From contig CANIAV010000015.1 in NCBI GenBank assembly GCA_947465365.1, forward strand, positions 1 to 11,785: a DNA stretch of 11,785 nucleotides, written 5' to 3'. Each line of letters begins with the position of its first letter. Position 1 is the first letter of the stretch. The stretch comes from Actinomycetota bacterium. GTDB lineage: Bacteria > Actinomycetota > Actinomycetes > Nanopelagicales > Nanopelagicaceae. Shown one piece after another: positions 145 through 11,785 of the stretch. Below the pieces are notes generated by a model that was not told where the DNA came from, ran no database searches, and worked only from the letters and a program-made list of their open reading frames with translations. The translations under genes were made by a program, and so were the position numbers.

Positions 145-939
145 TTAACGAACTGGTGAAAGCGCTTGGTCTTTCTTATCGACTGTCATAGCGCCAGTCA
201 TGATCGCAACAACATCGTTCATGCTGTGTGTCTTTGGAGTAACGACTGCAGCGCGCTTTCCGAGGCGTTGTACCTGGATGCGATCTGCAACTTCAAAGAC
301 CTGCGGCATGTTGTGTGAAATCAAGATAACTGGCATACCGCGATCGCGTAGTGACTCGATCAACTTGAGCACCTGACGTGATTCACGAACACCTAAAGCT
401 GCAGTTGGTTCATCGAGAATAATTAACTTCTGGCCGAAGGCTGCTGCGCGTGCCACGGCAACTGCCTGGCGTTGTCCACCAGAGAGCGTTTCCACTGCCT
501 GTGAAATATTTTGAATAGTTCCAATACCAAGTGCTGAAATATGTTCCTTCGCAGCCTTGCGCATTCCAGAGCTATCTAACATGCGGAAGATTGACCCAAG
601 TGGACCACTCTTACGCATTTCACGACCGAGATAAAGGTTTGATGCGATATCAAGTGCGGGTGCAACAGCAAGTGTCTGATACACAGTTTCGATACCGGCA
701 TGGCGACCATCTTGCGGACGCTTAAATGAAACTTGGGCGCCATCGAGAATGATCTGACCCTCATCAGGAATTTCCGCGCCTGATAAGCACTTAATCAAAG
801 TTGATTTACCAGCGCCGTTATCGCCGACTACTGCGAGAACTTCACCAGGAAATAGTTCTAGGTCTGCTCCATCTAGTGCGATAACGCGACCGTAGTTCTT
901 AGTTACTCCGACTGCTTGCAGGATAGGGGCTTTACTCAT
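145..939 (-). CDS. Sugar ABC transporter ATP-binding protein, FrcA-like single domain
   Basis: This is the cytoplasmic ATPase that powers a CUT2-class sugar importer. At 264 residues it has one complete ABC domain: Walker A GDNGAGKST at 39-47, Q-loop glutamine at 88, signature LSGGQRQ at 152-158, Walker B LIILDEP at 172-178 and switch histidine at 209. Many CUT2 ATPases (RbsA, XylG) carry two tandem ABC domains and are about 500 residues. The single-domain form, and the segments ALGVRESRQV and ISHNMPQVFEVADRI, are like FrcA of the rhizobial fructose transporter. The ATG overlaps the permease stop by four bases (ATGA), so the two are probably translationally coupled. The substrate cannot be read from an ATPase; the neighbouring apionate genes suggest a pentose or branched pentose. 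Confidence 0.93.
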   Translation of the reverse strand: MSKAPILQAVGVTKNYGRVIALDGADLELFPGEVLAVVGDNGAGKSTLIKCLSGAEIPDEGQIILDGAQVSFKRPQDGRHAGIETVYQTLAVAPALDIASNLYLGREMRKSGPLGSIFRMLDSSGMRKAAKEHISALGIGTIQNISQAVETLSGGQRQAVAVARAAAFGQKLIILDEPTAALGVRESRQVLKLIESLRDRGMPVILISHNMPQVFEVADRIQVQRLGKRAAVVTPKTHSMNDVVAIMTGAMTVDKKDQALSPVR

Positions 940-1979
940 TTACGTGCCTTTCTGATCCACTGGTCAACAGAGACCGCGAAGATAATTAGAAGTCCGATTG
1001 CAAGGAGCTGGTAGTAGAGATCTACGCCAGCAAGGGTCAGTCCGTTACGGAAAACACCCACGATGATCGCTCCGATTAGCGAACCGAAGATTGTGCCGCG
1101 GCCACCGAAGAGTGAGGTACCGCCGATAACCACCGCAGTGATCGAATCTAGGTTCAAATCGCTGCCGGTATTTGGGCTGGCTACCGTAACGCGGCCGATC
1201 ACGATCCAAGCAGATAGAGCGAAGATCAAACCAGCAACCACATAAACGCTCATCAAGACGCGGTTTACTGAGATACCAGCAAGGCGTGCGGCATCGATAT
1301 CGTCACCGACTGCGTAAACGTGGCGACCCCAACCGGTGTAGCGAAGCACGAATGCTAAGAATGAATACATCGCAATCATAAATAGAACACCTGTTGTAAT
1401 TCGGAACGGTCCAAGATTTACATAGTGCCCAAGAGTTAATAGGAATGGATCCATCTCAATTGAAGGAACAGTTCCCTTTGTCAATGTAAGAGTTAGCGCA
1501 ACGAATACGTTGAAAGTACCCAAGGTAACGATAAATGGTGGCAACTTAACTTTTGTAACCAAGAAGCCGTTTATTGCTCCGCCTAGCATTCCAACAGCCA
1601 AACCAAGCGGGAACGCTAACCAAATTGACCAACCAGCAGGGTGACCTTCACCTGGCGTTCCTTGAACTAACTTCGCCATAGTCATTGATGAAAAGACTGC
1701 GATTGCACCACATGAAAGATCGATGCCTGCTGTCAAGATAATTATTGTCTGACCTGCAGCAACTGCTCCGACGATTGCGACTTGCTGCAAGATAAGTGAG
1801 AAGTTAGAAGGTGTTAAGAAGTTTTCGTTGAAAAAGCTAAAGGTAATTGATGCAAAGAGAAGAACAAATGCTGAACTCAACCATGGGTATTTATGGAGAG
1901 TGGCTTGGATTTTCTGGCTAACTGATGCGCGGTCTTGAAACTCCGCAGCTGCATCATACGTGGCCGTATCTTGACTCAC
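936..1979 (-). CDS. Sugar ABC transporter permease, RbsC/FrcC family
   Basis: Integral membrane subunit of the CUT2-type importer, expected to act as a homodimer. Hydrophobic segments suggest eight to ten transmembrane helices. Family landmarks (numbered from the upstream ATG at 1994) are LTAGIDLSCGAI near residue 90, the cytoplasmic coupling loop YAVGDDIDAARLAGISVNRV near 227-246 and VIGGTSLFGGRGTIFGS near 289-305. An ATG at 1994 is in frame but has no Shine-Dalgarno sequence. The GTG at 1979 is preceded by AAAGGA with a six-base spacer and is preferred, giving 347 residues; starting at 1994 would add five. The gene follows the binding-protein gene after about 160 bases containing a strong hairpin and overlaps the ATPase start by four bases. 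Confidence 0.92.
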   Translation of the reverse strand: MSQDTATYDAAAEFQDRASVSQKIQATLHKYPWLSSAFVLLFASITFSFFNENFLTPSNFSLILQQVAIVGAVAAGQTIIILTAGIDLSCGAIAVFSSMTMAKLVQGTPGEGHPAGWSIWLAFPLGLAVGMLGGAINGFLVTKVKLPPFIVTLGTFNVFVALTLTLTKGTVPSIEMDPFLLTLGHYVNLGPFRITTGVLFMIAMYSFLAFVLRYTGWGRHVYAVGDDIDAARLAGISVNRVLMSVYVVAGLIFALSAWIVIGRVTVASPNTGSDLNLDSITAVVIGGTSLFGGRGTIFGSLIGAIIVGVFRNGLTLAGVDLYYQLLAIGLLIIFAVSVDQWIRKARK

Positions 1980-1985
1980 TTGTGG

Positions 1986-1991
1986 TCCTTT
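1986..1991 (-). promoter_or_regulatory. Ribosome-binding site deciding the permease start
   Basis: AAAGGA on the minus strand, six bases upstream of the GTG at 1979. It lies inside the coding sequence if translation starts at the ATG at 1994, so it argues for the GTG start. Confidence 0.55.
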
Positions 1992-2067
1992 CATTCTTGC
2001 TAAAAATCCGGATTGATCACTTTAAGCAACTCTACTGCCTTACAAGATTTTTATTGACTGGGACTAG

Positions 2068-2140: not shown

Positions 2141-3205
2141 TTAACCCCAAGCGTTTGCTAGACCGTATTCAGTTGTCTCTGATGCAACACCATCTTGTGG
2201 GTCATCAGTGATCAACTTGACACCTGTGTTGAAGAAGTCAAGACCATCTGAAACAGCTGGCTTTGTACCGTTCTTCACGATGTCGTAGATAGCTTGAACA
2301 CCAAGGTCAGCCATCAATAGTGGGTACTGCTGTGAAGTTGCGTTGATGCAACCTGACTTAACAGCGCCGATACCGGCTCCACCACCGTCAACAGAAACCA
2401 TTGCATCGATCTTGACGCCTGCAGCCTTAGCAGCAGCACAAGCTCCGATAGCAGTTGGTTCGTTGATTGTGTAAACAACGTTGATCTTCTTGTTCTTAGC
2501 AAGAAGCTTCTCAAGTCCGGTACGTCCACCGTCTTCGTTAGCTCCAGTTGCTACGTTTCCTACGATCTCGTAATCGCCACCTGAGTACTTGCCAGTCTTG
2601 GCTTCGTCTCCCATGACCTTAGGATCCTTGACGTCGATTCCCATACCTGTAAGGAATCCGTTGTCACGGTTGTAGTCAACAGATACAACGCGATCATCAA
2701 AGATATCTAGAAGTGCAATTGTTGCCTTCTTGCCAGCGAGCTTCTTAGCTGTCCACTGACCGATTAGCTTTCCAGCTTCGAAGTTATCTGTCGCGAATGT
2801 GATATCCACGATTGAAGCAGGATCTGGTGGTGTGTCAAGCGCAATAACGAATAGACCTGCATCGCGGGCCTTAGTGATTGCTGCGTTAACTTCTGTAGAT
2901 ACTGGAACGATCAAGATTCCAGCTTGCTTTGCAGATACAGCGTTTTCAATAGCTGCAATCTGACCTGCGTAGTCTGATTCATCCTTACCAGATGCAACAG
3001 TTAGATCTACGCCAAGTGACTCTGCCTTAGCAGTAGCACCCTTGATCATTGCAACGAAGAATGGGTTTGACTGATCTTTTGTAATAAGTGAAACAGCAAC
3101 TTTGTCGCTGCCACTAGAGCTCTTTGAACATCCAGAGAGCACAAGCATTGACGCTGCGGCTACAGCAACAATTGCTGCAGTGCGGCGTGAGAAAAGCTTT
3201 GCCAT
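2141..3205 (-). CDS. Sugar-binding lipoprotein of the ABC importer, FrcB/RbsB type
   Basis: Extracytoplasmic solute-binding protein that captures the sugar and delivers it to the permease. The 354-residue product begins with a lipoprotein signal peptide: basic SRR at 6-8, a hydrophobic stretch at 10-23 and lipobox LSGC with the lipidated cysteine at 26, followed by a Ser-rich linker. The rest is a type I periplasmic-binding fold (Peripla_BP_4). It has ITKDQSNPFF near 41-50, IALDTPPDP near 121-129 and TINEPTAIGA near 246-255, the hinge-region pattern of fructose/ribose-binding proteins. AGGAGG lies eight bases before the ATG, the best ribosome-binding site seen here. A 135-base gap upstream suggests it also has its own promoter. 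Sequence alone does not fix the ligand; apiose, arabinose, fructose and ribose are all candidates, with apiose favoured by the flanking apnL-oiaC-apnO genes. Confidence 0.92.
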   Translation of the reverse strand: MAKLFSRRTAAIVAVAAASMLVLSGCSKSSSGSDKVAVSLITKDQSNPFFVAMIKGATAKAESLGVDLTVASGKDESDYAGQIAAIENAVSAKQAGILIVPVSTEVNAAITKARDAGLFVIALDTPPDPASIVDITFATDNFEAGKLIGQWTAKKLAGKKATIALLDIFDDRVVSVDYNRDNGFLTGMGIDVKDPKVMGDEAKTGKYSGGDYEIVGNVATGANEDGGRTGLEKLLAKNKKINVVYTINEPTAIGACAAAKAAGVKIDAMVSVDGGGAGIGAVKSGCINATSQQYPLLMADLGVQAIYDIVKNGTKPAVSDGLDFFNTGVKLITDDPQDGVASETTEYGLANAWG

Positions 3206-3340
3206 ATGTATTTCCTCCTATAGGTGGGTCATTCGCAACCGATACTACATAGGGTCTTCCCTCATTAAAAGGGTTTTCAGGCGAAAATTAGATCGTTACC
3301 CAACCGTTACTCGCTGCCGAAAGAGCGTTATTTGGCTGCC
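3206..3340 (-). promoter_or_regulatory. Leader/probable promoter region of the ABC transporter genes
   Basis: This gap between apnL and the binding-protein gene has no ORF that I credit. On the minus strand, TAGTAT (3242-3247) is a possible -10 box about 23 bases before the AGGAGG, but I see no good -35 element. CGTTAC occurs twice, at 3294-3299 and 3305-3310, exactly 11 bases apart and so on one face of the helix, which could mark a regulator site. CCCT/AGGG/CCCT blocks at 3251-3273 could form two alternative short hairpins. These elements are suggestive only. Confidence 0.35.
3214..3219 (-). promoter_or_regulatory. Strong ribosome-binding site of the sugar-binding protein
   Basis: A perfect AGGAGG on the minus strand, eight bases before the ATG at 3205. 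It is the strongest such site in the window and fits high expression of the binding protein. Confidence 0.85.
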
Positions 3341-5122
3341 TTAGCCCCGTATCAGGGCGATCTCGAAGGGGGCCAGGGTTAGTGGCAAATCGGCCGAAAT
3401 CGGAGTTGTCTCAGAATATGACCACCAATCCATAATCTGGCTCGCCCGGTCGCATTCATCGCTGCGCAAACTCTGAATCGATTTATAGCCGGCTAGCACC
3501 TTGGCGGTGATTTCAAGGGACCAAGGGCGAAGGGAAGCCACAAGAATTCTTTTAGTTTCTCTATTTTCAAATGCTACCCACGAATTATCAACTGAAGTCG
3601 CAATTGTTATTTGATGAGAGTGATGTGCGCCAAGGGCCGAAAGAGCATGAAATGTTGGAGAAAACTTAGTAGCACCGTTTTGCGAATAAATAACTCCGGA
3701 TTCACCAAATAGTTCGTGCCAACTTCCAGAGAATGCACCGGCGCTCGCAAGCGCAAAGATGGAACCGAGTGTCCAAGCTGCGCCTTCTATAGTTCTAATA
3801 CGCGATGCCGCATCTAAATTTGCAAAATTAATTCGCTCATCTCGCGAATGCCCGGTCTCAGGATTTCCACGAGTTGAAAAGGTAATCGGTGAGATAAAAA
3901 CCTGTGGAGCCAAATACTTTTGGGCAAACTCAATTGACTCGTGCTGGGTGTATAAAGTTTTAAAGATAGTTTCGGTATCTGCCGAATGCACCGTTGGCAC
4001 CATCGAATATGAAACCGAACTTCCGAATTCATATTTATTGCGGTGTAGATCAACTAGGTAAGCATCACTTCCTGGAATATAAGAGCTAAGTGATTCATTC
4101 TTTGGTAGGTCAACTTCTTCAACAATTTCGCGGCCTTCGCGCTGAATTAATATCCGCGAACCGGCAGGAACTCTTTGGCTTAACTGTGTTACTTCAGATT
4201 GCAATGCAGCGCCGCCATTAGATGAGAGCAGAGCCGCCTCCAAGATAAGCCCGCTAGATGAAGTAGTCGCAATCTTCTGGGCGGTAAGTGACTCCTCATT
4301 TACTCGCAAATGATCTATATCGAGTAAAACCAGGGCTTTTTCCAGGTCGTCGGGGGATAACAAAGGCTCGGTATTAAATTGAAGACCGATACTTGGCAGC
4401 GCTTCAATCTCGCGCACCACGATCTTTGCTGGGTCTGTAGCAGTACCACTTGGCGCGCCAACTTCAAATTTAATACTTTGCTTCCAGATGCTGCCCGCGC
4501 TTGTTACAAATGGACGCGGTTCGCTTAACGACCCGCTATAGATTTTATAAGTGTTATCAGTCCAGTTACGTTGATCTTCTGCTTCTAGAACTTTTCCAGT
4601 TGAAGTTGCCTTAATAAAGCGTTTGTCAGGTGCCACAAAGTGCATCTCATTTGCTGCAGGAAATAACCCTTGTGTGACCCCATCTATTACGCGCTGCGGT
4701 GAAATATCTTGCAAAAGCGTATAAGCATTTCCAGAATAGTTAACTGTTGATCCCATCCAGTCTCCGCTATGGAGACATAGACAAATTCCCCAACGGTTAA
4801 CTGAATATTCGGCTAAACCTTTTAATTGATAGTCAACCGAAAAAGTATTATCTGTTGTGAGTGTAATTATGGTTTGTGCCTCTAGCGCACCGGCAAAAGT
4901 GTCTGAAATCGTAACTATGCAGTCCGCACCATTTACTTTTACATCTTCTGTGTGGCTATCAGCAACAAGAGTTGACCAATCCCACGGTCTAATTGCGGTG
5001 TAGAGCAGATCAATTAGCTGGGCGCCTTTATAAGTGATGTTTCGTACTGCAGCTTCTGCTAAATCTAAAGTGAAATCTCCATGTTCTACCCGCGATGTAT
5101 CGGGCCAGTGATTTGTACTCAC
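3341..5122 (-). CDS. apnL: D-apionate lactonase-like protein (ApnL family)
   Basis: Probably hydrolyses D-apionolactone to D-apionate in oxidative D-apiose breakdown. The product is 593 residues with no signal peptide, so cytoplasmic. It reads as three parts: a beta-rich N-terminal domain (about 1-235) containing EAEDQRNWTDNTYKIY at 180-195; a TIM-barrel-like middle (about 240-500) with VPTVHSAD near 375-382, ISPITFSTRGNP near 410-421, the segment around EGAAWTLGS at 446-454 and a following glycine-rich GESGVIY; and a beta-rich C-terminal domain. I recognise this layout from the D-apionate lactonase family, from memory and not from a search. The frame is open upstream to an ATG at 5194, but those 24 codons lie over the dehydrogenase gene and look like noise. 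GTG at 5122 overlaps the dehydrogenase stop by four bases (GTGA) and is preferred. An unusual glycosidase-like enzyme is the main alternative. Confidence 0.7.
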   Translation of the reverse strand: MSTNHWPDTSRVEHGDFTLDLAEAAVRNITYKGAQLIDLLYTAIRPWDWSTLVADSHTEDVKVNGADCIVTISDTFAGALEAQTIITLTTDNTFSVDYQLKGLAEYSVNRWGICLCLHSGDWMGSTVNYSGNAYTLLQDISPQRVIDGVTQGLFPAANEMHFVAPDKRFIKATSTGKVLEAEDQRNWTDNTYKIYSGSLSEPRPFVTSAGSIWKQSIKFEVGAPSGTATDPAKIVVREIEALPSIGLQFNTEPLLSPDDLEKALVLLDIDHLRVNEESLTAQKIATTSSSGLILEAALLSSNGGAALQSEVTQLSQRVPAGSRILIQREGREIVEEVDLPKNESLSSYIPGSDAYLVDLHRNKYEFGSSVSYSMVPTVHSADTETIFKTLYTQHESIEFAQKYLAPQVFISPITFSTRGNPETGHSRDERINFANLDAASRIRTIEGAAWTLGSIFALASAGAFSGSWHELFGESGVIYSQNGATKFSPTFHALSALGAHHSHQITIATSVDNSWVAFENRETKRILVASLRPWSLEITAKVLAGYKSIQSLRSDECDRASQIMDWWSYSETTPISADLPLTLAPFEIALIRG

Positions 5123-5835
5123 CGCGCAGTCATTCCGCCATCGACTGCGTAAGAAGCACCAGTTGCAAATGAAGAATCTGTCGAAACCAACCAATTAACG
5201 ATTCCTACTAGTTCGCGCGGTTCACCTAAGCGACCAAGCGGTGTGCGCGCAACCAATCCTGCGCCCTTTGCAGGGTCTTCTAAAATCTTGGCAATAAGTG
5301 GCGTAATCATCGATCCTGGAACAACAACATTTGAACGCACGCCATCTTCTTTGTAATCGGCGGCGATTATGCGAGATAGGCCCATCATTCCTGCCTTGGA
5401 TGCGCCATATGCGCTGTAGCCGGCACCTTCCATCGAGATCGCAGTAGGCGAGCCGATTAGAACAACTGAGCCGCGGCCAGATTTAACTAAAAGTGGCATC
5501 GCGTGTTTAACAGATAGAAATGCGCCGGTGAGATTGATATCAATTGTGCGCTGCCAGGTATCTAATGTGACCTCACCAATTTTTGAATCACTGCCGACTA
5601 ATTGCACACCAGCTGCAACGATTATGGCATCTAGCTTTTCGATCTTTTTAAAAGCTTCCTGGACCGAGTTTTCATCGCTTAAATCAACGCTAATAAATTT
5701 AGAGCTTTCATCTGCAGGTTTCACAAAATCTAGGTTGTAGACCATTGCTCCATCTTCTAGCAACCCAGTTGCTAAAGCAGAACCAATCCCGCCAGAACCG
5801 CCGGTAATAGCAACGTGATATCCGCTTAGCTTCAT
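5119..5835 (-). CDS. SDR-family NAD(P)-dependent dehydrogenase, possible sugar 1-dehydrogenase
   Basis: Classical short-chain dehydrogenase of 238 residues. It has the cofactor motif TGGSGGIG at 11-18, an aspartate at 36 after the second strand (LDF, which favours NAD+ over NADP+), D51 in VDLSD, VAAG at 73-76 in place of the usual NAAG, active-site N101, S129, Y143 and K147 (YxxxK), and the usual C-terminal YAVDGG. It overlaps the upstream TIM-barrel gene (ATGA) and the downstream lactonase gene (GTGA) by four bases each, so it is embedded in the apionate operon. SDRs commonly oxidise aldoses to lactones. Next to a lactonase the simplest reading is oxidation of D-apiose to D-apionolactone, the job done by the unrelated ApsD elsewhere. 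That substrate is inferred; reduction or oxidation of a downstream ketose is also possible. Confidence 0.88.
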   Translation of the reverse strand: MKLSGYHVAITGGSGGIGSALATGLLEDGAMVYNLDFVKPADESSKFISVDLSDENSVQEAFKKIEKLDAIIVAAGVQLVGSDSKIGEVTLDTWQRTIDINLTGAFLSVKHAMPLLVKSGRGSVVLIGSPTAISMEGAGYSAYGASKAGMMGLSRIIAADYKEDGVRSNVVVPGSMITPLIAKILEDPAKGAGLVARTPLGRLGEPRELVGIVNWLVSTDSSFATGASYAVDGGMTAR

Positions 5836-6650
5836 ACTTTCAATCCTAGCGATTTACGTAAGAAGGAAACACTCTCTGTAGCCCAACTATCTTCCAGCGC
5901 CACAGTTTCTGCGTAACTTTCTTGGCGCGGGGTCCAGAGTTCAATCACTGCTGTGATTTCCCGTTTGATCCCTCCAACGGATTCGATAACTGCAGCAACA
6001 TCTAAGCGACCTTGTCCAAGTGCGGTGCCACGCACCGTAAATCCCATCTGACCATTTGTGCGAACGATTTCAAAATCCTTCATATGCACATTGATCGCTC
6101 GCGGAGCCAACGCTGGAATAACGGTATTAGGCGCTTCTACCGCTCCTAATGAATTAACAGTGTCTAAGCAGATACCAACCCAATCAGCTCCAACGCGTTC
6201 GATAATCTCGTTAAATTGTGCGCAAGTTAAGCGGTCATGATTTTCAATAGCCAATTTAATATTTGCTGCCTTAAATTTTGCGCTAAATGGTTTTAAGAGA
6301 TCGCAAATCTCAGCGATATCTGGTTCGTGGCCCTTGCTATCAATTACTACGCGCAATATTGGTGATCCCAATATTTGGGCGATTTTTAAGAAGCGCTCAA
6401 TATTTTCGGCTTTAATACCGCGTGTGCCAACTTCTAAAGCTATCGAATAACTATCAGCAGCTACCTTTAATCTGTGCAGCTCATCATCAGCTAAATGCCC
6501 AATAGGTAAGTTATCGGCGATTTGCAGTACATCAGCGCCAAGGGCTCGCGCCCGTTCCAGTAATTCAAATGCGTTCATAACTACCGGGTGATCATCTTCG
6601 ATCCCACCGATTGCCCAAGGAAAGGTAAAGCTAGAAACGCCTAGTTTCAT
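5832..6650 (-). CDS. oiaC: Xylose-isomerase-like TIM barrel, probable 3-oxo-isoapionate decarboxylase
   Basis: A 272-residue member of the AP_endonuc_2/sugar-phosphate isomerase-epimerase superfamily. The usual metal-binding set is visible: E136 in AIENHDR, D163 in CLDTVNS, H189 in NVHMKDF and E237 in VIELWTP. The segments SSFTFPWAIG at 6-15, QIADNLPIGHL near 43-53, EVGTRG at 73-78 and MGFTVRGTALGQGRLD at 202-217 match my memory of the OiaC-type subgroup, which decarboxylates 3-oxo-isoapionate to L-erythrulose. Placement directly after the apnO-like gene and upstream of an apnL-like gene supports this. The ATG follows the apnO stop by eight bases without a strong Shine-Dalgarno sequence, and the stop overlaps the dehydrogenase start. 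Superfamily membership is near certain; the exact reaction is less so, since ketose epimerases share the fold. Confidence 0.7.
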   Translation of the reverse strand: MKLGVSSFTFPWAIGGIEDDHPVVMNAFELLERARALGADVLQIADNLPIGHLADDELHRLKVAADSYSIALEVGTRGIKAENIERFLKIAQILGSPILRVVIDSKGHEPDIAEICDLLKPFSAKFKAANIKLAIENHDRLTCAQFNEIIERVGADWVGICLDTVNSLGAVEAPNTVIPALAPRAINVHMKDFEIVRTNGQMGFTVRGTALGQGRLDVAAVIESVGGIKREITAVIELWTPRQESYAETVALEDSWATESVSFLRKSLGLKV

Positions 6651-6658
6651 CTTGGGAT

Positions 6659-7504
6659 TTACTTATCTCCACCGGTGATTTGTTTAACGCTAGCGAGCAC
6701 ATTCTCTGGCTCAAAGATTGCTGCCCAATCATCACGGAAGAGCGAACCTTGCGCGTTCTTTAGCGCCATCAAAGCGCCATCAGATAACTTCCAATTTAAC
6801 TCTTCAAATAAGAGCGCGATGCTGATCTGAAGGTGTCCCATACAGAAATCTTTTGCAGCAGCCTCTGGTACTCCGAGATCAATAACTTTCTGCAGACCTT
6901 GGGTAATAACTTCAACACAACCATTAATAAGCGTTTCACTAAGCGCTGGCTCTAGCAGCGCCATTTGCTGCACGGTAATGCGGTGGCTGGCGCTAATTGG
7001 CGCAAACATTTCAGTGGCAATGGTTTCAACTAAATCTGCTTCTTCTTCAGTGCCCCAGGCAATCGCGAAGACAAGTGCTTGAGTCGCAAGTCCGCCGCCC
7101 CAATAATCGCGTCGCGCAGCAGGATCAGTCTCACCCAACAAACTAAATACTGGTGGATGCGTTGGGTGGCAGACGAAACAACTTATATCCTCACGCTTTT
7201 TTACGCGGCTAGCTGCAATAGCAGCCGGATCTAAAAAGAGGATCTTTGTTCCGGGATCTAGCTTTGGGACTACTTCATCTGAAATCTGTCGAACTAAAGC
7301 ATCTGGAGTTGTGAAAATTACAACATCAGTTCCCTTGAGGGCATCATCTAGATCCATGACTTCTAAACCCGCTTCGCGAATGCGCGCTTGTCCGGCTTCA
7401 GATTTTTCAACGAAACGAAGTTGGTACTTCTTGGTTTCAAGAAGTGGTTTGGTAATTCGATTACCCATCTTCCCGCCGGCGCCCAAAATCGTTACAACAG
7501 TCAT
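6659..7504 (-). CDS. apnO: D-apionate oxidoisomerase-like NAD-dependent enzyme (ApnO, PGDH_C family)
   Basis: Predicted to oxidise and rearrange D-apionate to 3-oxo-isoapionate. The 281-residue protein has an N-terminal Rossmann domain with ILGAGGKMG at 6-14. An all-alpha C-terminal domain of the phosphogluconate-dehydrogenase-C type follows, containing VCHPTHPPVF at 111-120, ETDPAARRDYWGG at 125-137, HRITVQQMALLEPALSET at 174-191 and KDFCMGHLQISIAL near 218-231. These blocks are characteristic of the group containing ApnO and are unlike true 6-phosphogluconate dehydrogenases, which are about 470 residues. The ATG is preceded by AGGAGA at 7509-7514. It is the first gene of the minus-strand block and faces araB across 77 bases. 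A related hydroxyacid dehydrogenase acting on another branched sugar acid is the alternative. Confidence 0.75.
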   Translation of the reverse strand: MTVVTILGAGGKMGNRITKPLLETKKYQLRFVEKSEAGQARIREAGLEVMDLDDALKGTDVVIFTTPDALVRQISDEVVPKLDPGTKILFLDPAAIAASRVKKREDISCFVCHPTHPPVFSLLGETDPAARRDYWGGGLATQALVFAIAWGTEEEADLVETIATEMFAPISASHRITVQQMALLEPALSETLINGCVEVITQGLQKVIDLGVPEAAAKDFCMGHLQISIALLFEELNWKLSDGALMALKNAQGSLFRDDWAAIFEPENVLASVKQITGGDK

Positions 7505-7581
7505 CAGATCTCCTATGAATTCTCGTTTGCCTACTTTTTCAACTCTAGCAGCAGGAATATCCTCTGCGGTAGGCTCCTCAG
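7505..7581. promoter_or_regulatory. Divergent promoter region between apnO and araB
   Basis: Seventy-seven bases separate the start codons of the two divergent operons, so both promoters and any shared operator must fit here or reach into the genes. The apnO ribosome-binding site AGGAGA is at 7509-7514 on the minus strand. TATCCT at 7558-7563 is a possible plus-strand -10 box, and TTGAAA at 7537-7542 a possible minus-strand -35 box, but neither has a convincing partner. I see no clear LacI-type or AraC-type palindrome. Confidence 0.45.
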
Positions 7582-9267
7582 GTGTCCGATTCAGCTACTA
7601 AAGACTTTGCTAATAAATATGTAATTGGCGTTGATTACGGAACTCTTTCCGGTCGCGCACTTCTGGTTCGAGTCTCAGATGGCGCCGAAATTGCAACTTC
7701 AGTTTATGAATATCCACACGCAGTAATTGAAGAAACGCTGCCAACTTCAGGTGCCAAGCTTCCACCCGATTGGGCGCTGCAAGTTCCAGCAGATTATGTC
7801 GATGTTCTCAAAGTTACCGTTCCTGCAGTCTTAAAAGAATCTGGGATTGATCCAGCATCGGTTATCGGAATAACTACAGATTTCACCGCCTGCACAGTTT
7901 TGCCCGTTAAAGCAGATGGCACACCACTTTGCGAACTACCGGAATTTTCTAAGAACCCGCATGCCTTTGTTAAGTTATGGAAGCACCATTCGGCTCAATC
8001 TCATGCGGATCGAATTACTGATCTCGCGCACTCACGAAAAGAGCCATGGATTTCGCGCTACGGTGGGAAAATTTCATCGGAATGGGAATTTGCTAAAGCG
8101 CTACAAGTTCTGGAAGATGCACCTGAAATTTATCAAGCGATGGATAAATGGGTGGAAGCAGCTGACTGGATTATCTGGCAGTTATGTGGAAAATATGTGC
8201 GCAATATTTGTACCGCTGGATATAAAGGTATTTATCAAGATGGAAAGTATCCAAGCAAGGAATACCTAGCCGCGCTTAATCCTAAATTTGAAAACTTCAT
8301 CTCTGAAAAGTTAGAACATGAAATTGGTCAGCTAGGTGCAGTTGCTGGAACCTTAACCGCAGAAGCAGCAGCTTGGACTGGGCTAAGAGAAGGTATTGCA
8401 GTTGCAGTCGGAAACGTTGATGCGCACGTAACTTCAGCTGCAGCAAATGCAGTTAACCCAGGACAGATGGTTGCGATTATGGGTACATCTACTTGCCATG
8501 TAATGGTCTCGGAGAAATTTGCTGAAGTACCCGGCATGTGTGGAGTTGTTGATGGCGGAATTATCGATGGCGCACTTGGCTATGAAGCAGGCCAATCAGG
8601 CGTTGGCGATATCTTCGGCTGGTTTGCCAATAATTACGCACCCGCTGAATACACCGCAGCTGCCGCAGCTAAAGGCGTAGATATACATACCTATCTATCT
8701 GATTTAGCTAGCGCGCAACCAGTTGGCGCACATGGCTTAGTCGCACTCGATTGGCAGAGCGGCAACCGATCTACCTTGGTAGATCACCAGTTATCAGGGC
8801 TGATCATGGGCTTAACGCTTTCTACCAAACCTGAGGAAATTTACCGCGCCATCGTTGAATCAACTGCCTATGGTGCGCGCAAGATCGTGCAGACCTTTAA
8901 TGAATCTGGTGTACCGGTAAAGGAGTTCATCGCTGCCGGTGGTTTAATCAAAAATAGATTTGTAATGCAGATCTATGCAGATGTATTGAATATGCCGATC
9001 ACAATTATTAAATCAGCTCAAGGCCCGGCACTTGGTTCGGCAATTCACGCAGCCGTTGCCGCTGGCGCATATAAAGATGTTCAAACCGCCGCGGCAGCAA
9101 TGGGCGGAGTTGCGCAAGAGCGTTACCAACCAAATGCCGCTAACGCTGCGGTCTATAACGATCTCTATAAGCACTACAACGATCTTTATGAAAACTTTGG
9201 GCACAATGGTGCAATGCAATCACTGCGCGCGATCCGCGATCGCGCCCTTACTGGATCGGCAAAATAA
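7582..9267 (+). CDS. araB: Ribulokinase
   Basis: FGGY-family kinase that phosphorylates L-ribulose to L-ribulose 5-phosphate with ATP, the second step of bacterial L-arabinose use. At 561 residues it is the usual AraB length and full-length. Motifs in order: phosphate-binding GVDYGTLSGRA at 16-26, TTDFTACTVLP at 98-108, KLWKHHSAQ at 131-139, ISSEWEFAK at 164-172, catalytic aspartate D280 in GNVDAHV, MGTSTCHVM at 300-308, GYEAGQSGVGDIFGWF at 333-348 and AAGGLIKN at 451-458. Translation starts at GTG 7582; a stop at 7570-7572 in frame rules out anything longer. AGG at 7571-7573 is a weak ribosome-binding site. It overlaps araD by one base (TAATG). AraB accepts several ketopentoses, so the substrate here could be broader than L-ribulose. 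Confidence 0.95.
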   Translation: MSDSATKDFANKYVIGVDYGTLSGRALLVRVSDGAEIATSVYEYPHAVIEETLPTSGAKLPPDWALQVPADYVDVLKVTVPAVLKESGIDPASVIGITTDFTACTVLPVKADGTPLCELPEFSKNPHAFVKLWKHHSAQSHADRITDLAHSRKEPWISRYGGKISSEWEFAKALQVLEDAPEIYQAMDKWVEAADWIIWQLCGKYVRNICTAGYKGIYQDGKYPSKEYLAALNPKFENFISEKLEHEIGQLGAVAGTLTAEAAAWTGLREGIAVAVGNVDAHVTSAAANAVNPGQMVAIMGTSTCHVMVSEKFAEVPGMCGVVDGGIIDGALGYEAGQSGVGDIFGWFANNYAPAEYTAAAAAKGVDIHTYLSDLASAQPVGAHGLVALDWQSGNRSTLVDHQLSGLIMGLTLSTKPEEIYRAIVESTAYGARKIVQTFNESGVPVKEFIAAGGLIKNRFVMQIYADVLNMPITIIKSAQGPALGSAIHAAVAAGAYKDVQTAAAAMGGVAQERYQPNAANAAVYNDLYKHYNDLYENFGHNGAMQSLRAIRDRALTGSAK

Positions 9268-9929
9268 TGGGCCAAAAGAAAGAGCTACAAAGCAAGGTCT
9301 GCAAATTAAATATTGATCTACAGCGATATGGTCTAGTTGCATGGACCGCTGGCAACGTTTCTGAACGTATGGCTGATGGAAAAAGTTTTATGATCAAACC
9401 AAGTGGCGTTAGCTATGAAGATTTGGTTCCATCTCAGATGATTATCTGTGATCTTGATGGAAAAGTTTTAGAAGGTGAACTCTCTCCTTCCAGCGACACT
9501 TTTACCCATGCCTATATCTACCGCCACATGCCACAAGTCGGCGGCGTCGTTCATACACATTCAAATTACGCAGCAGCATGGAGCGCAATACATAGCGCCA
9601 TTCCTTGCGCGCTAACTGCGATGGCTGATGAATTCGGTGGCGAAATTCCACTTGGTCCATTTGCCTTGATTGGTAATGATGAAATCGGTAAAGGTGTGGT
9701 TGAAACCCTTGCAGGACACCGATCTTCAGCGGTAATCATGAAGAATCACGGAGTTTTCGCAATCGGGAAAGATGCCACCGCTGCAGTTAAATCTGCGGTT
9801 ATGTGTGAAGACGTTGCAAAGACAACTTGGATCGCAAAGACGCTGGGTAATCTGCAATTACTTGATCAAGCCAGCATCGATAAGTTGTATGACCGCTATC
9901 AAAATATCTACGGTCAACGCGGTAATTAA
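9267..9929 (+). CDS. araD: L-ribulose-5-phosphate 4-epimerase (class II aldolase family)
   Basis: Interconverts L-ribulose 5-phosphate and D-xylulose 5-phosphate, linking arabinose to the pentose-phosphate pathway. The 220-residue protein has the class II aldolase/epimerase fold: TAGNVSER at 27-34, KPSGVSYEDL at 44-53 and SPSSDTFTH at 73-81. The zinc ligands are H96, H98 (VVHTHS) and H161 (KNHGVF). D77 and D121 (MADEFGG) correspond to the E. coli AraD residues D76 and D120, and Y215 in NIYGQ fits the C-terminal catalytic tyrosine. The start codon shares its A with the araB stop, so the two are coupled. A fuculose-phosphate aldolase would be the main alternative, but the araB neighbour and the YGQ tail favour AraD. 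Confidence 0.92.
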   Translation: MGQKKELQSKVCKLNIDLQRYGLVAWTAGNVSERMADGKSFMIKPSGVSYEDLVPSQMIICDLDGKVLEGELSPSSDTFTHAYIYRHMPQVGGVVHTHSNYAAAWSAIHSAIPCALTAMADEFGGEIPLGPFALIGNDEIGKGVVETLAGHRSSAVIMKNHGVFAIGKDATAAVKSAVMCEDVAKTTWIAKTLGNLQLLDQASIDKLYDRYQNIYGQRGN

Positions 9930-10753: not shown

Positions 10754-11785
10754 TTAAGTAACCTTTAATTTAAAGGCGCCTGCTGCGATTCCCGCAAACT
10801 CTGCAGCCCCTGTCGCCCCAGCCTCTGTTGCATCTGAAACTCGGTAACTTCCAAACTGTTTCTCTTTGGCATAAGCAATAACTGGATTTTTAATCCAGCC
10901 ACCTGCAATTACAACGTTCTGTGCTTTACCAGTGTATTTTTCAATTAGCGAGATCATCTGCGCTGAATCATCGACTAAATGTTCTACAGTTGCGCGAAAT
11001 AGCGCAGCAGGTGAAACGGCGTCATCTAAGTTGGTAACTGAGAGGCCGTGATAATCATTTACAACACGCATCGCACTTGCGTTTGGATCAATGGCAAGTG
11101 CCGCCTTACCAAGTTCGATCTTTTCTTCGCGCGTTGCAACTCCTACTAAAGAACAGGCGCGTTCCAGAGTTAACCCGGTTGGCAGCGCGCCAAGCAATGT
11201 GTAGTGATCTGCAATTACCGAACAACTTAAACCAACATTGGCCGCCGCTAATTCGGCGATTGCATCGCGTGTTAAGGGAGCTTTAAATGTTCGAAGTAAC
11301 GCTTCCGCAGTTCCCATTGAATCAAAGAGTGAGCCTTCATTTATCGCACCGCAGTAATAAGCAGCGGTGAAATGGTCATGGCCGGCAATTGTTATTACTG
11401 CGCCCCTTAAAACTTCAGGTGCTTCGTTATTTACAACTCCGATTGGTTCACCGGCGACTACAAGGCGGGCCAAGAAATCTTTTCCGCCACCAACTAAGGC
11501 AATCGCTTCTTCCCATGGTTTGCGGGCTTCGACATCAAAGAAACCAGTGCGACTGACCAAGGAAAGTTCATTAACTGGTTCGGCACCTAAACAGTAAGCC
11601 ACCCATTCAGGCGCTGATAGAAAATACTTTGCCTTCTTAGATTCTGGATAATTTTGATTTAGCCAGAGCGTTTTTGAAATTGTTACGATCTCATTTAACA
11701 AAGCACCAGCACGTGCACGGAATTCAAAATCACCTAACTCTTTAACAATCGGCTCAGTTATTCCACGTGGATCATGCCAAGCTAA
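10754..11785 (-). CDS. FGGY-family sugar kinase, 5' end cut by the window
   Basis: The frame is open to the right edge and carries 343 codons of the middle and C-terminal part; the N-terminal phosphate-binding region is outside. The first visible residues read AWHDPRG, the usual FGGY segment. They are followed by WLNQNYPE, SRTGFFD, the catalytic-base block AGHDHFTAAYY (aspartate codon at 11375-11377), FDSMGTAEALL, and the ATP-site block VVIAGGWIKNP with ATEAGATGAAEFAGIAAG near the C-terminus. TTG at 11701 is not the start, because conserved family sequence lies upstream of it. It is clearly different from AraB. Possible substrates include xylulose, fuculose, erythritol or erythrulose-like polyols and ketoses; none can be chosen from sequence. 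It converges on the ROK gene with only three bases between stops. Confidence 0.88.
   Translation of the reverse strand, partial: LAWHDPRGITEPIVKELGDFEFRARAGALLNEIVTISKTLWLNQNYPESKKAKYFLSAPEWVAYCLGAEPVNELSLVSRTGFFDVEARKPWEEAIALVGGGKDFLARLVVAGEPIGVVNNEAPEVLRGAVITIAGHDHFTAAYYCGAINEGSLFDSMGTAEALLRTFKAPLTRDAIAELAAANVGLSCSVIADHYTLLGALPTGLTLERACSLVGVATREEKIELGKAALAIDPNASAMRVVNDYHGLSVTNLDDAVSPAALFRATVEHLVDDSAQMISLIEKYTGKAQNVVIAGGWIKNPVIAYAKEKQFGSYRVSDATEAGATGAAEFAGIAAGAFKLKVT

Follow-up and report, generated by a model that had tools for sequence, protein, structure and literature searches.

Carter et al. (2018) are said to have described an oxidative pathway for D-apiose in which ApsD, ApnL, ApnO and OiaC act in turn and LerK, EryH and EryI follow. 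ApnO runs the reaction of a ketol-acid reductoisomerase backwards, on a 2,3-dihydroxy acid with a beta branch, and this chemistry limits its possible substrates. Here we analyse an operon of ApnO-like, OiaC-like, short-chain dehydrogenase/reductase (SDR) and ApnL-like genes on the minus strand of contig CANIAV010000015.1 from a bacterium of the Nanopelagicaceae; the whole 11,785-nucleotide contig (C15 among our labels, in which L and G numbers denote loci and genomes) is referred to as the window. The Carter et al. study is cited in PMC6302742, and growth on D-apiose is reported for a marine member of the Rhodobacteraceae whose ApsD/ApnL/ApnO/OiaK/OiaX cluster is annotated (PMC11747546). A related locus lies on plasmid pShin-03 of Shinella sp. 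HZN7 (L002), which carries ApnL, an annotated OiaX, a PGDH_C protein, a Gfo/Idh/MocA dehydrogenase that is ApsD by position, and a ribose-type ATP-binding cassette (ABC) transporter.

The window locus shares with the oxidative OiaC pathway an ApnO and an OiaC homologue that retain nearly all of their conserved columns, a lactonase of the ApnL family and a sugar ABC transporter, all encoded at one locus. It differs in having an SDR at the ApsD step, a lactonase that lies far from the ApnL group, AraB and AraD as divergent neighbours and no DhaK-type LerK in the operon genomes tested. The Shinella locus has the ApnO-type PGDH_C protein, the ApnL family and the ribose-type transporter in common with the window, but combines them with a RuBisCO-like OiaX and a Gfo/Idh/MocA dehydrogenase, whereas the window has OiaC and the SDR. 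Also related are three actinobacterial loci (L152, L153 and L100, the last from Microbacterium testaceum), which share the SDR clade, ApnO, ApnL and the lack of an ApsD match; their ApnL proteins are 28-30% identical to the Shinella enzyme, compared with approximately 21-24% for the window protein, and L152 and L153 carry a LerK-type kinase, while L100 has OiaX in place of OiaC. This link between an SDR clade and ApnO- and ApnL-bearing loci without an ApsD match is new here. Our literature search, which left most subscription journals outside its coverage, found no paper joining Planktophila and apiose.

From the genes, their homology, conserved columns and synteny, and the association of their families with apiose loci, we infer, and consider fairly probable, that the operon serves the uptake and oxidative catabolism of D-apiose (or its lactone) to L-erythrulose by a variant of the known pathway. 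The ABC transporter would import the sugar and the SDR, in place of the Gfo/Idh/MocA dehydrogenase ApsD, would oxidize D-apiose at C1 to D-apionolactone, whose ring the divergent ApnL-like protein would open to give D-apionate. The ApnO-like protein would then convert D-apionate to 3-oxo-isoapionate by NAD-dependent oxidation coupled to migration of the carbon skeleton, and the OiaC-like protein would decarboxylate this beta-keto acid to L-erythrulose. If so, small-genome actinobacteria would break down a sugar of plant cell walls and duckweed, and several actinobacteria would have in common a new candidate apiose dehydrogenase.

The ApnO-like protein exceeds the cut-offs of both PF16896 and KARI_N (32.8 bits for the latter). 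Its best solved relative is PDB entry 5t57 (230 bits), whose sequence, compared by eye, matches a plasmid protein from Cupriavidus necator N-1 (L001) that is 42.5% identical to the window protein; the PGDH_C protein encoded at the Shinella apiose locus is 43% identical to it. The ApnO-like protein keeps 50 of the 54 near-invariant columns, those shared by at least 95% of 77 ApnO-type rows, and nests, with a support of 96, among 40 rows from mixed ApnO loci in a quick tree with long branches; one extra row (L102b) was entered in this tree and excluded from the column count. Scanning named genomes with the ApnO alignment kept at least 80 loci, five of the window type and 75 others. Among the 75 others listed, where flanks of at most 10 kb were inspected and several contigs are short, ApnL was found near 52, OiaC near 20, and ApsD and OiaX near 52 and 47, respectively, although these last two calls, made by phmmer at E 1e-40 with one Shinella query each (a partial gene for OiaX), may take in other Gfo/Idh/MocA or RuBisCO-like proteins. 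At least one of the four accompanied ApnO at 69 loci and none of them at six, ApsD or ApnL was present at 55, and a similar ABC permease at 46.

In the OiaC tree, the window type groups with 19 of the 20 ApnO-linked OiaC-type proteins (support 91/94), which come from Bacteroidota, Chloroflexota, Verrucomicrobiota, Planctomycetota, Spirochaetota, one Rubrivivax bin and one unclassified bin. The other side of the tree holds six plasmid proteins of loci without ApnO, together with the ApnO-linked L063. For this tree and that of ApnL only the best match per locus was used, and the length minima removed no row. Of the 48 columns that at least 90% of 20 rows share, the OiaC-like protein has retained 44; the eight rows that make up the other OiaC-like group and the outlier (seven plasmid rows and L063) were excluded from this count. 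An Erwinia plasmid protein also falls in the window group, and its long branch leaves the placing of the window type within the group unsure; on the Erwinia plasmid the OiaC-like gene stands together with genes for a PGDH_C protein, a DhaK-family kinase and a triose-phosphate-isomerase-like protein, with rpiB nearby, which is the gene set that the L-erythrulose branch predicts. The ApnO and OiaC family assignments made in a preliminary description of this DNA are thus borne out by trees, conserved columns and gene neighbourhoods, both proteins nesting in families that occur at apiose loci of other phyla; we found no other characterized pathway that lays claim to either of them, and the core idea of that description is likely right for this pair.

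The four genes had also been placed correctly on the minus strand and in the right order, spanning 3341-7504. They are transcribed in the order ApnO-like, OiaC-like, SDR and ApnL-like, followed by the substrate-binding protein, permease and ATPase of the transporter and the start of a GMC oxidoreductase gene. A gap of 8 bp separates the ApnO-like and OiaC-like genes and the latter overlaps the SDR gene by 4 bp, while the lactonase-like gene begins with a GTG at position 5122, in a four-base overlap (GTGA) with the SDR stop. The TTG listed as its start, at 5194, is too early, because four of five close orthologues contain a TGA inside the aligned 617 codons and their frames are open only at the 593-residue start. 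The order ApnO-OiaC-SDR-ApnL is repeated in orthologous loci of related genomes (L018-L022, L037, L039, L040 and L154-L158), and L036 and L038 match it up to their contig ends; this recurrence bears out the earlier judgement that coincidence is unlikely. An ApnO gene occurs in 15 of 296 genomes of the order, all 15 within one genus of 17. No viral contigs were found, and the window's own genome has no GH127-type protein (PF07944). The window (46.6% GC) comes from an incomplete genome of 948,127 bases in 149 contigs (57.75% complete); near-complete relatives have genomes of 1.3-1.5 Mb, one relative is from Lac Pavin and the sample codes of the others are taken as lakes and reservoirs. The host is probably a small-genome bacterium of lakes, and genome size, GC and source suggest that it belongs to the freshwater acI/Nanopelagicales group.

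The preliminary description had left the SDR step open, and this gene now has a candidate role. No ApsD was found in the window, nor any homologue at E 1e-20 in the rest of its genome (G000, 58% complete), and the best match in operon-bearing G091 (99% complete) is only 26% identical, which is no close homologue. Among the at least 80 ApnO loci listed, no SDR other than those of the window type matched better than that of M. testaceum (44%, 194 bits), the next reaching 112 bits. The actinobacterial loci L152 and L153, which carry LerK, OiaC, ApnO, SDR and ApnL genes in that order, gave 197-198 bits, and overall the window SDR is 42-44% identical (192-198 bits) to the SDRs of L100, L152 and L153. 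In a tree of 21 hand-chosen rows these four SDRs form one clade with a support of 100/98, and three ApsD queries found no match in L100, L152 or L153. Outside the genus, seven actinobacterial ApnO loci were compared: all three with an ApnL match have an SDR of this clade and none of the four without has one; L149 has an SDR of 33% identity that lies outside the clade. Regions were examined for five of the six other-actinobacterial matches (all except G373), and tblastn was used for the GC-rich loci (L100 and L149-L153) because these contain many spurious open reading frames. The window SDR found no match at E 1e-30 among 72,556 plasmid records. Because it shares a clade with the SDRs of three ApnO- and ApnL-bearing loci that have no ApsD match, the window SDR is our best candidate for a D-apiose 1-dehydrogenase in place of ApsD.

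The assignment of the fourth protein to ApnL proved incomplete: distant homology over the full length stands, whereas the protein misses the curated cut-off and is separated by a very long branch from the ApnL group, which covers six phyla. Profile alignment with hhalign against the ApnL group gave a probability of 100% (E 1.1e-39) over 555 columns, and the protein keeps the EDQRNW stretch and E180, E182, D183, R185, N186, W187, D189, K193, Y195, H379 and D382. It has no Pfam match, and a PDB search with ApnL-type proteins gave a chance-level match only for the window protein and none with the profile. Identity to most orthologues is approximately 69-75% (96% in G091), compared with 95-99% for ApnO, which shows that the window type evolves fast. 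Given this fast evolution and the divergence in score, tree and columns set out below, the protein may be an apionolactonase that has diverged rapidly, or else a lactonase with some other substrate; it would offer a strongly diverged lactonase on which to test the range of change open to the ApnL family.

Several observations weigh against the D-apiose reading. The lactonase scores only 84 bits against the D-apionate lactonase equivalog NF049900, which has a cut-off of 750 (its L020 orthologue scores 80, compared with 813.5 for Shinella ApnL), and in a quick, midpoint-rooted tree with long branches the six window-type rows are split from 57 other ApnL-type rows by a very long branch. Of the 66 columns that at least 92% of 53 rows have in common, the window protein keeps 44; some of the 22 missing ones, such as H117, are probably alignment shifts. 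All five full-length window-type rows (L038, cut by its contig end, being excluded) keep 38 of these columns. Four genus members (G185, G073, G085 and G028) have a second, closer ApnL, keeping 57 of the 66 columns, with an ApsD-like gene elsewhere in the genome, and the window lactonase may therefore act on another lactone. In addition, the window-type ApnO has a long stem (2.42 changes per column), four of the seven actinobacterial ApnO loci (one on a 4.6-kb contig) lack both an ApnL match and the clade SDR, and there are only three such SDR loci in a family whose substrates are hard to predict. A Dak1-type (DhaK/LerK) kinase was found in none of the six operon genomes tested, five of which are at least 91% complete, and in the whole set of ten genomes only in the operon-free G040. 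No apiosidase (PF13204) was found in the ten genomes searched for it, which include the six operon genomes.

The lactonase that stands apart in the tree, the operon without ApsD and the more typical ApnL gene that four relatives keep elsewhere, with an ApsD-like gene, would suit a pathway for a different 3-C-branched aldose or lactone, in which the same chemistry would make a substituted ketotetrose because the SDR and lactonase would take a substrate other than apiose. ApnO and OiaC, which act on one carbon skeleton, nevertheless keep nearly all of their conserved columns, and the SDR clade adjoins closer ApnL relatives in the three other actinobacterial loci; we therefore regard such a substrate as unlikely, although it is the strongest alternative to D-apiose. 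That D-apionolactone or D-apionate is itself imported, with the SDR or the GMC oxidoreductase working at another point, such as on a product derived from erythrulose, seems improbable to us. The absence of a close ApsD homologue from G091, the GMC oxidoreductase gene downstream of the transporter and the SDR genes that also adjoin OiaC-like genes at loci with tripartite ATP-independent periplasmic (TRAP) transporters are compatible with it, but the three TRAP-locus SDRs in our tree fall outside the window clade and the transporter, like that of the Shinella apiose locus, belongs to the ribose type.

In connection with the fate of L-erythrulose under the D-apiose reading we considered the divergent araBD genes, AraB being a possible partner of the operon. 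AraB (E 1e-100) is found in all 15 operon genomes and in 25 of 281 others, and AraA in nine of the 15 and 27 of the 281. AraA was absent at its site beside isocitrate dehydrogenase in G641, G670 and G672, whereas the sequence examined in G606 stopped short of the site and no anchor was obtained in G680. AraB without AraA thus occurs in six of 15 operon genomes and in two of the 25 others with AraB (G627 and G653; Fisher p 0.036, uncorrected and from related genomes, several of them incomplete). It is highly improbable that the operon belongs to L-arabinose metabolism with only an incidental likeness to apiose genes, since AraB and AraD, although divergent neighbours at ten annotated orthologous loci (L018-L022 and L154-L158), persist in G641, G670 and G672 without AraA and its gene block, and ApnO-type chemistry is useless for L-arabinonate, which is unbranched. 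A role of AraB as L-erythrulose kinase is speculation, because the protein passes the curated ribulokinase cut-off. A wider proposal, which we hold to be rather doubtful, is that small-genome freshwater actinobacteria have evolved a parallel branched-sugar pathway in which the SDR and a remodelled lactonase feed ApnO and OiaC, perhaps from a non-apiose substrate, and in which L-erythrulose would pass through AraB (with AraD) and not LerK, araBD having been recruited from arabinose use in araA-less lineages. The accessory block beside isocitrate dehydrogenase, as read from translations, contains AraA-family, sugar ABC transporter, kinase-like and enolase-like genes; L159-L161 have it, and L166-L168, which lack it, keep araBD by the operon.

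The features of the window are collected in Table 1. The substrate-binding protein, a predicted lipoprotein by its signal sequence, is approximately 26% identical to that of the Shinella apiose locus and the permease 37% identical to its counterpart there, while the Shinella ATPase gene, of 1,545 bases, aligns twice to the single-domain window ATPase. A full GMC gene of 497 residues (GMC by Pfam) follows the ATPase in G091 and G073, and homologues occupy the equivalent position in L037, L040, L154, L155, L157 and L158. A ROK-protein gene runs divergently along with araB and araD, and an FGGY kinase gene at 10754 faces all three. The two conserved blocks between the apnO-like gene and araB may have a regulatory role and would be compatible with shared control; a promoter and terminator scan gave fewer matches than in shuffled sequence. 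Two conserved copies of GTAACG, whose starts are 11 bases apart, lie in the spacer ahead of the substrate-binding protein gene (3206-3340), as does a conserved AGGAGG that precedes the ATG.

Table 1. Features of the 11,785-nucleotide window, in order of position
Feature	Position	Strand	Evidence or remarks
GMC-family flavin oxidoreductase, first 38 codons, cut by contig end	1..115	-	related genomes
Sugar ABC transporter ATPase, single domain, 264 residues	145..939	-	PF00005, one stretch
Ribose-type sugar ABC transporter permease	936..1994	-	PF02653, 134 bits
Ribose-type sugar ABC transporter substrate-binding protein, predicted lipoprotein	2141..3205	-	PF13407, 128.3 bits
ApnL-like putative D-apionolactonase, divergent, 593 residues, GTG start	3341..5122	-	NF049900, E 8.6e-24, 84 bits
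SDR, candidate NAD(P)-dependent D-apiose 1-dehydrogenase	5119..5835	-	PF13561, 150.4 bits (cut-off 27)
OiaC-like putative 3-oxo-isoapionate decarboxylase (xylose-isomerase-like TIM barrel)	5832..6650	-	PF01261, 65.9 bits (cut-off 31.1)
ApnO-like putative D-apionate oxidoisomerase (PGDH_C / KARI-like)	6659..7504	-	operon gene 1; PF16896, 163.7 bits (cut-off 25)
Divergent intergenic region apnO-like/araB, conserved blocks ACTCTAGCAG and CTGCGGTAG	7505..7581	.	alignment of 8 orthologous regions
AraB, L-ribulokinase (FGGY), divergent from the operon	7582..9267	+	TIGR01234, 801.7 bits (cut-off 583.25)
AraD, L-ribulose-5-phosphate 4-epimerase family	9267..9929	+	NF005123, 344.6 bits (cut-off 251)

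Across the genus, identity is mostly 69-83% for the OiaC, SDR and ApnL-like proteins (higher in G091) and mostly 85-99% for ApnO, the transporter and AraB. The lower identity in the middle of the operon (3341-6650) than in the flanking genes suggests recombination or relaxed constraint there.

The second locus mentioned above (L023-L027, in G161, G185, G073, G085 and G028) encodes an ApsD-like protein, ApnL, an SDR and an aldolase/dehydrogenase fusion, which in L025 is of the RhaD type and accompanied by an MtnA-like isomerase. A RuBisCO-like protein is present in L024-L027 and is nearer MtnW than OiaX in L024 and L025, and neither ApnO nor OiaC had a match at L023-L027. The ApnL-like protein of this locus falls beside Bacteroidota among the 57 other rows of the ApnL tree, and the ApsD homologues of G185, G073, G085 and G028 are 44-47% identical to ApsD. 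The locus occurs in four of six operon genomes and in one of the 195 others in the sample drawn; it cannot serve as a source of ApsD for the window pathway in G091, which has the window-type operon only. Its gene content would possibly fit a novel sugar pathway or a methylthioribose-like one.

We also considered the TRAP-type OiaC-like clusters of rhizobial and Roseobacter plasmids as a model for the window operon and rejected them, as their OiaC-like proteins and SDRs belong to other clades. Four such loci on rhizobial and Salipiger plasmids (L028, L030, L031 and L034) combine an OiaC-like gene with an SDR, a split transketolase and a TRAP transporter, joined in L030 and L034 by a DhaL-type kinase; they have no annotated PGDH_C gene and perhaps serve a different acid-sugar route.

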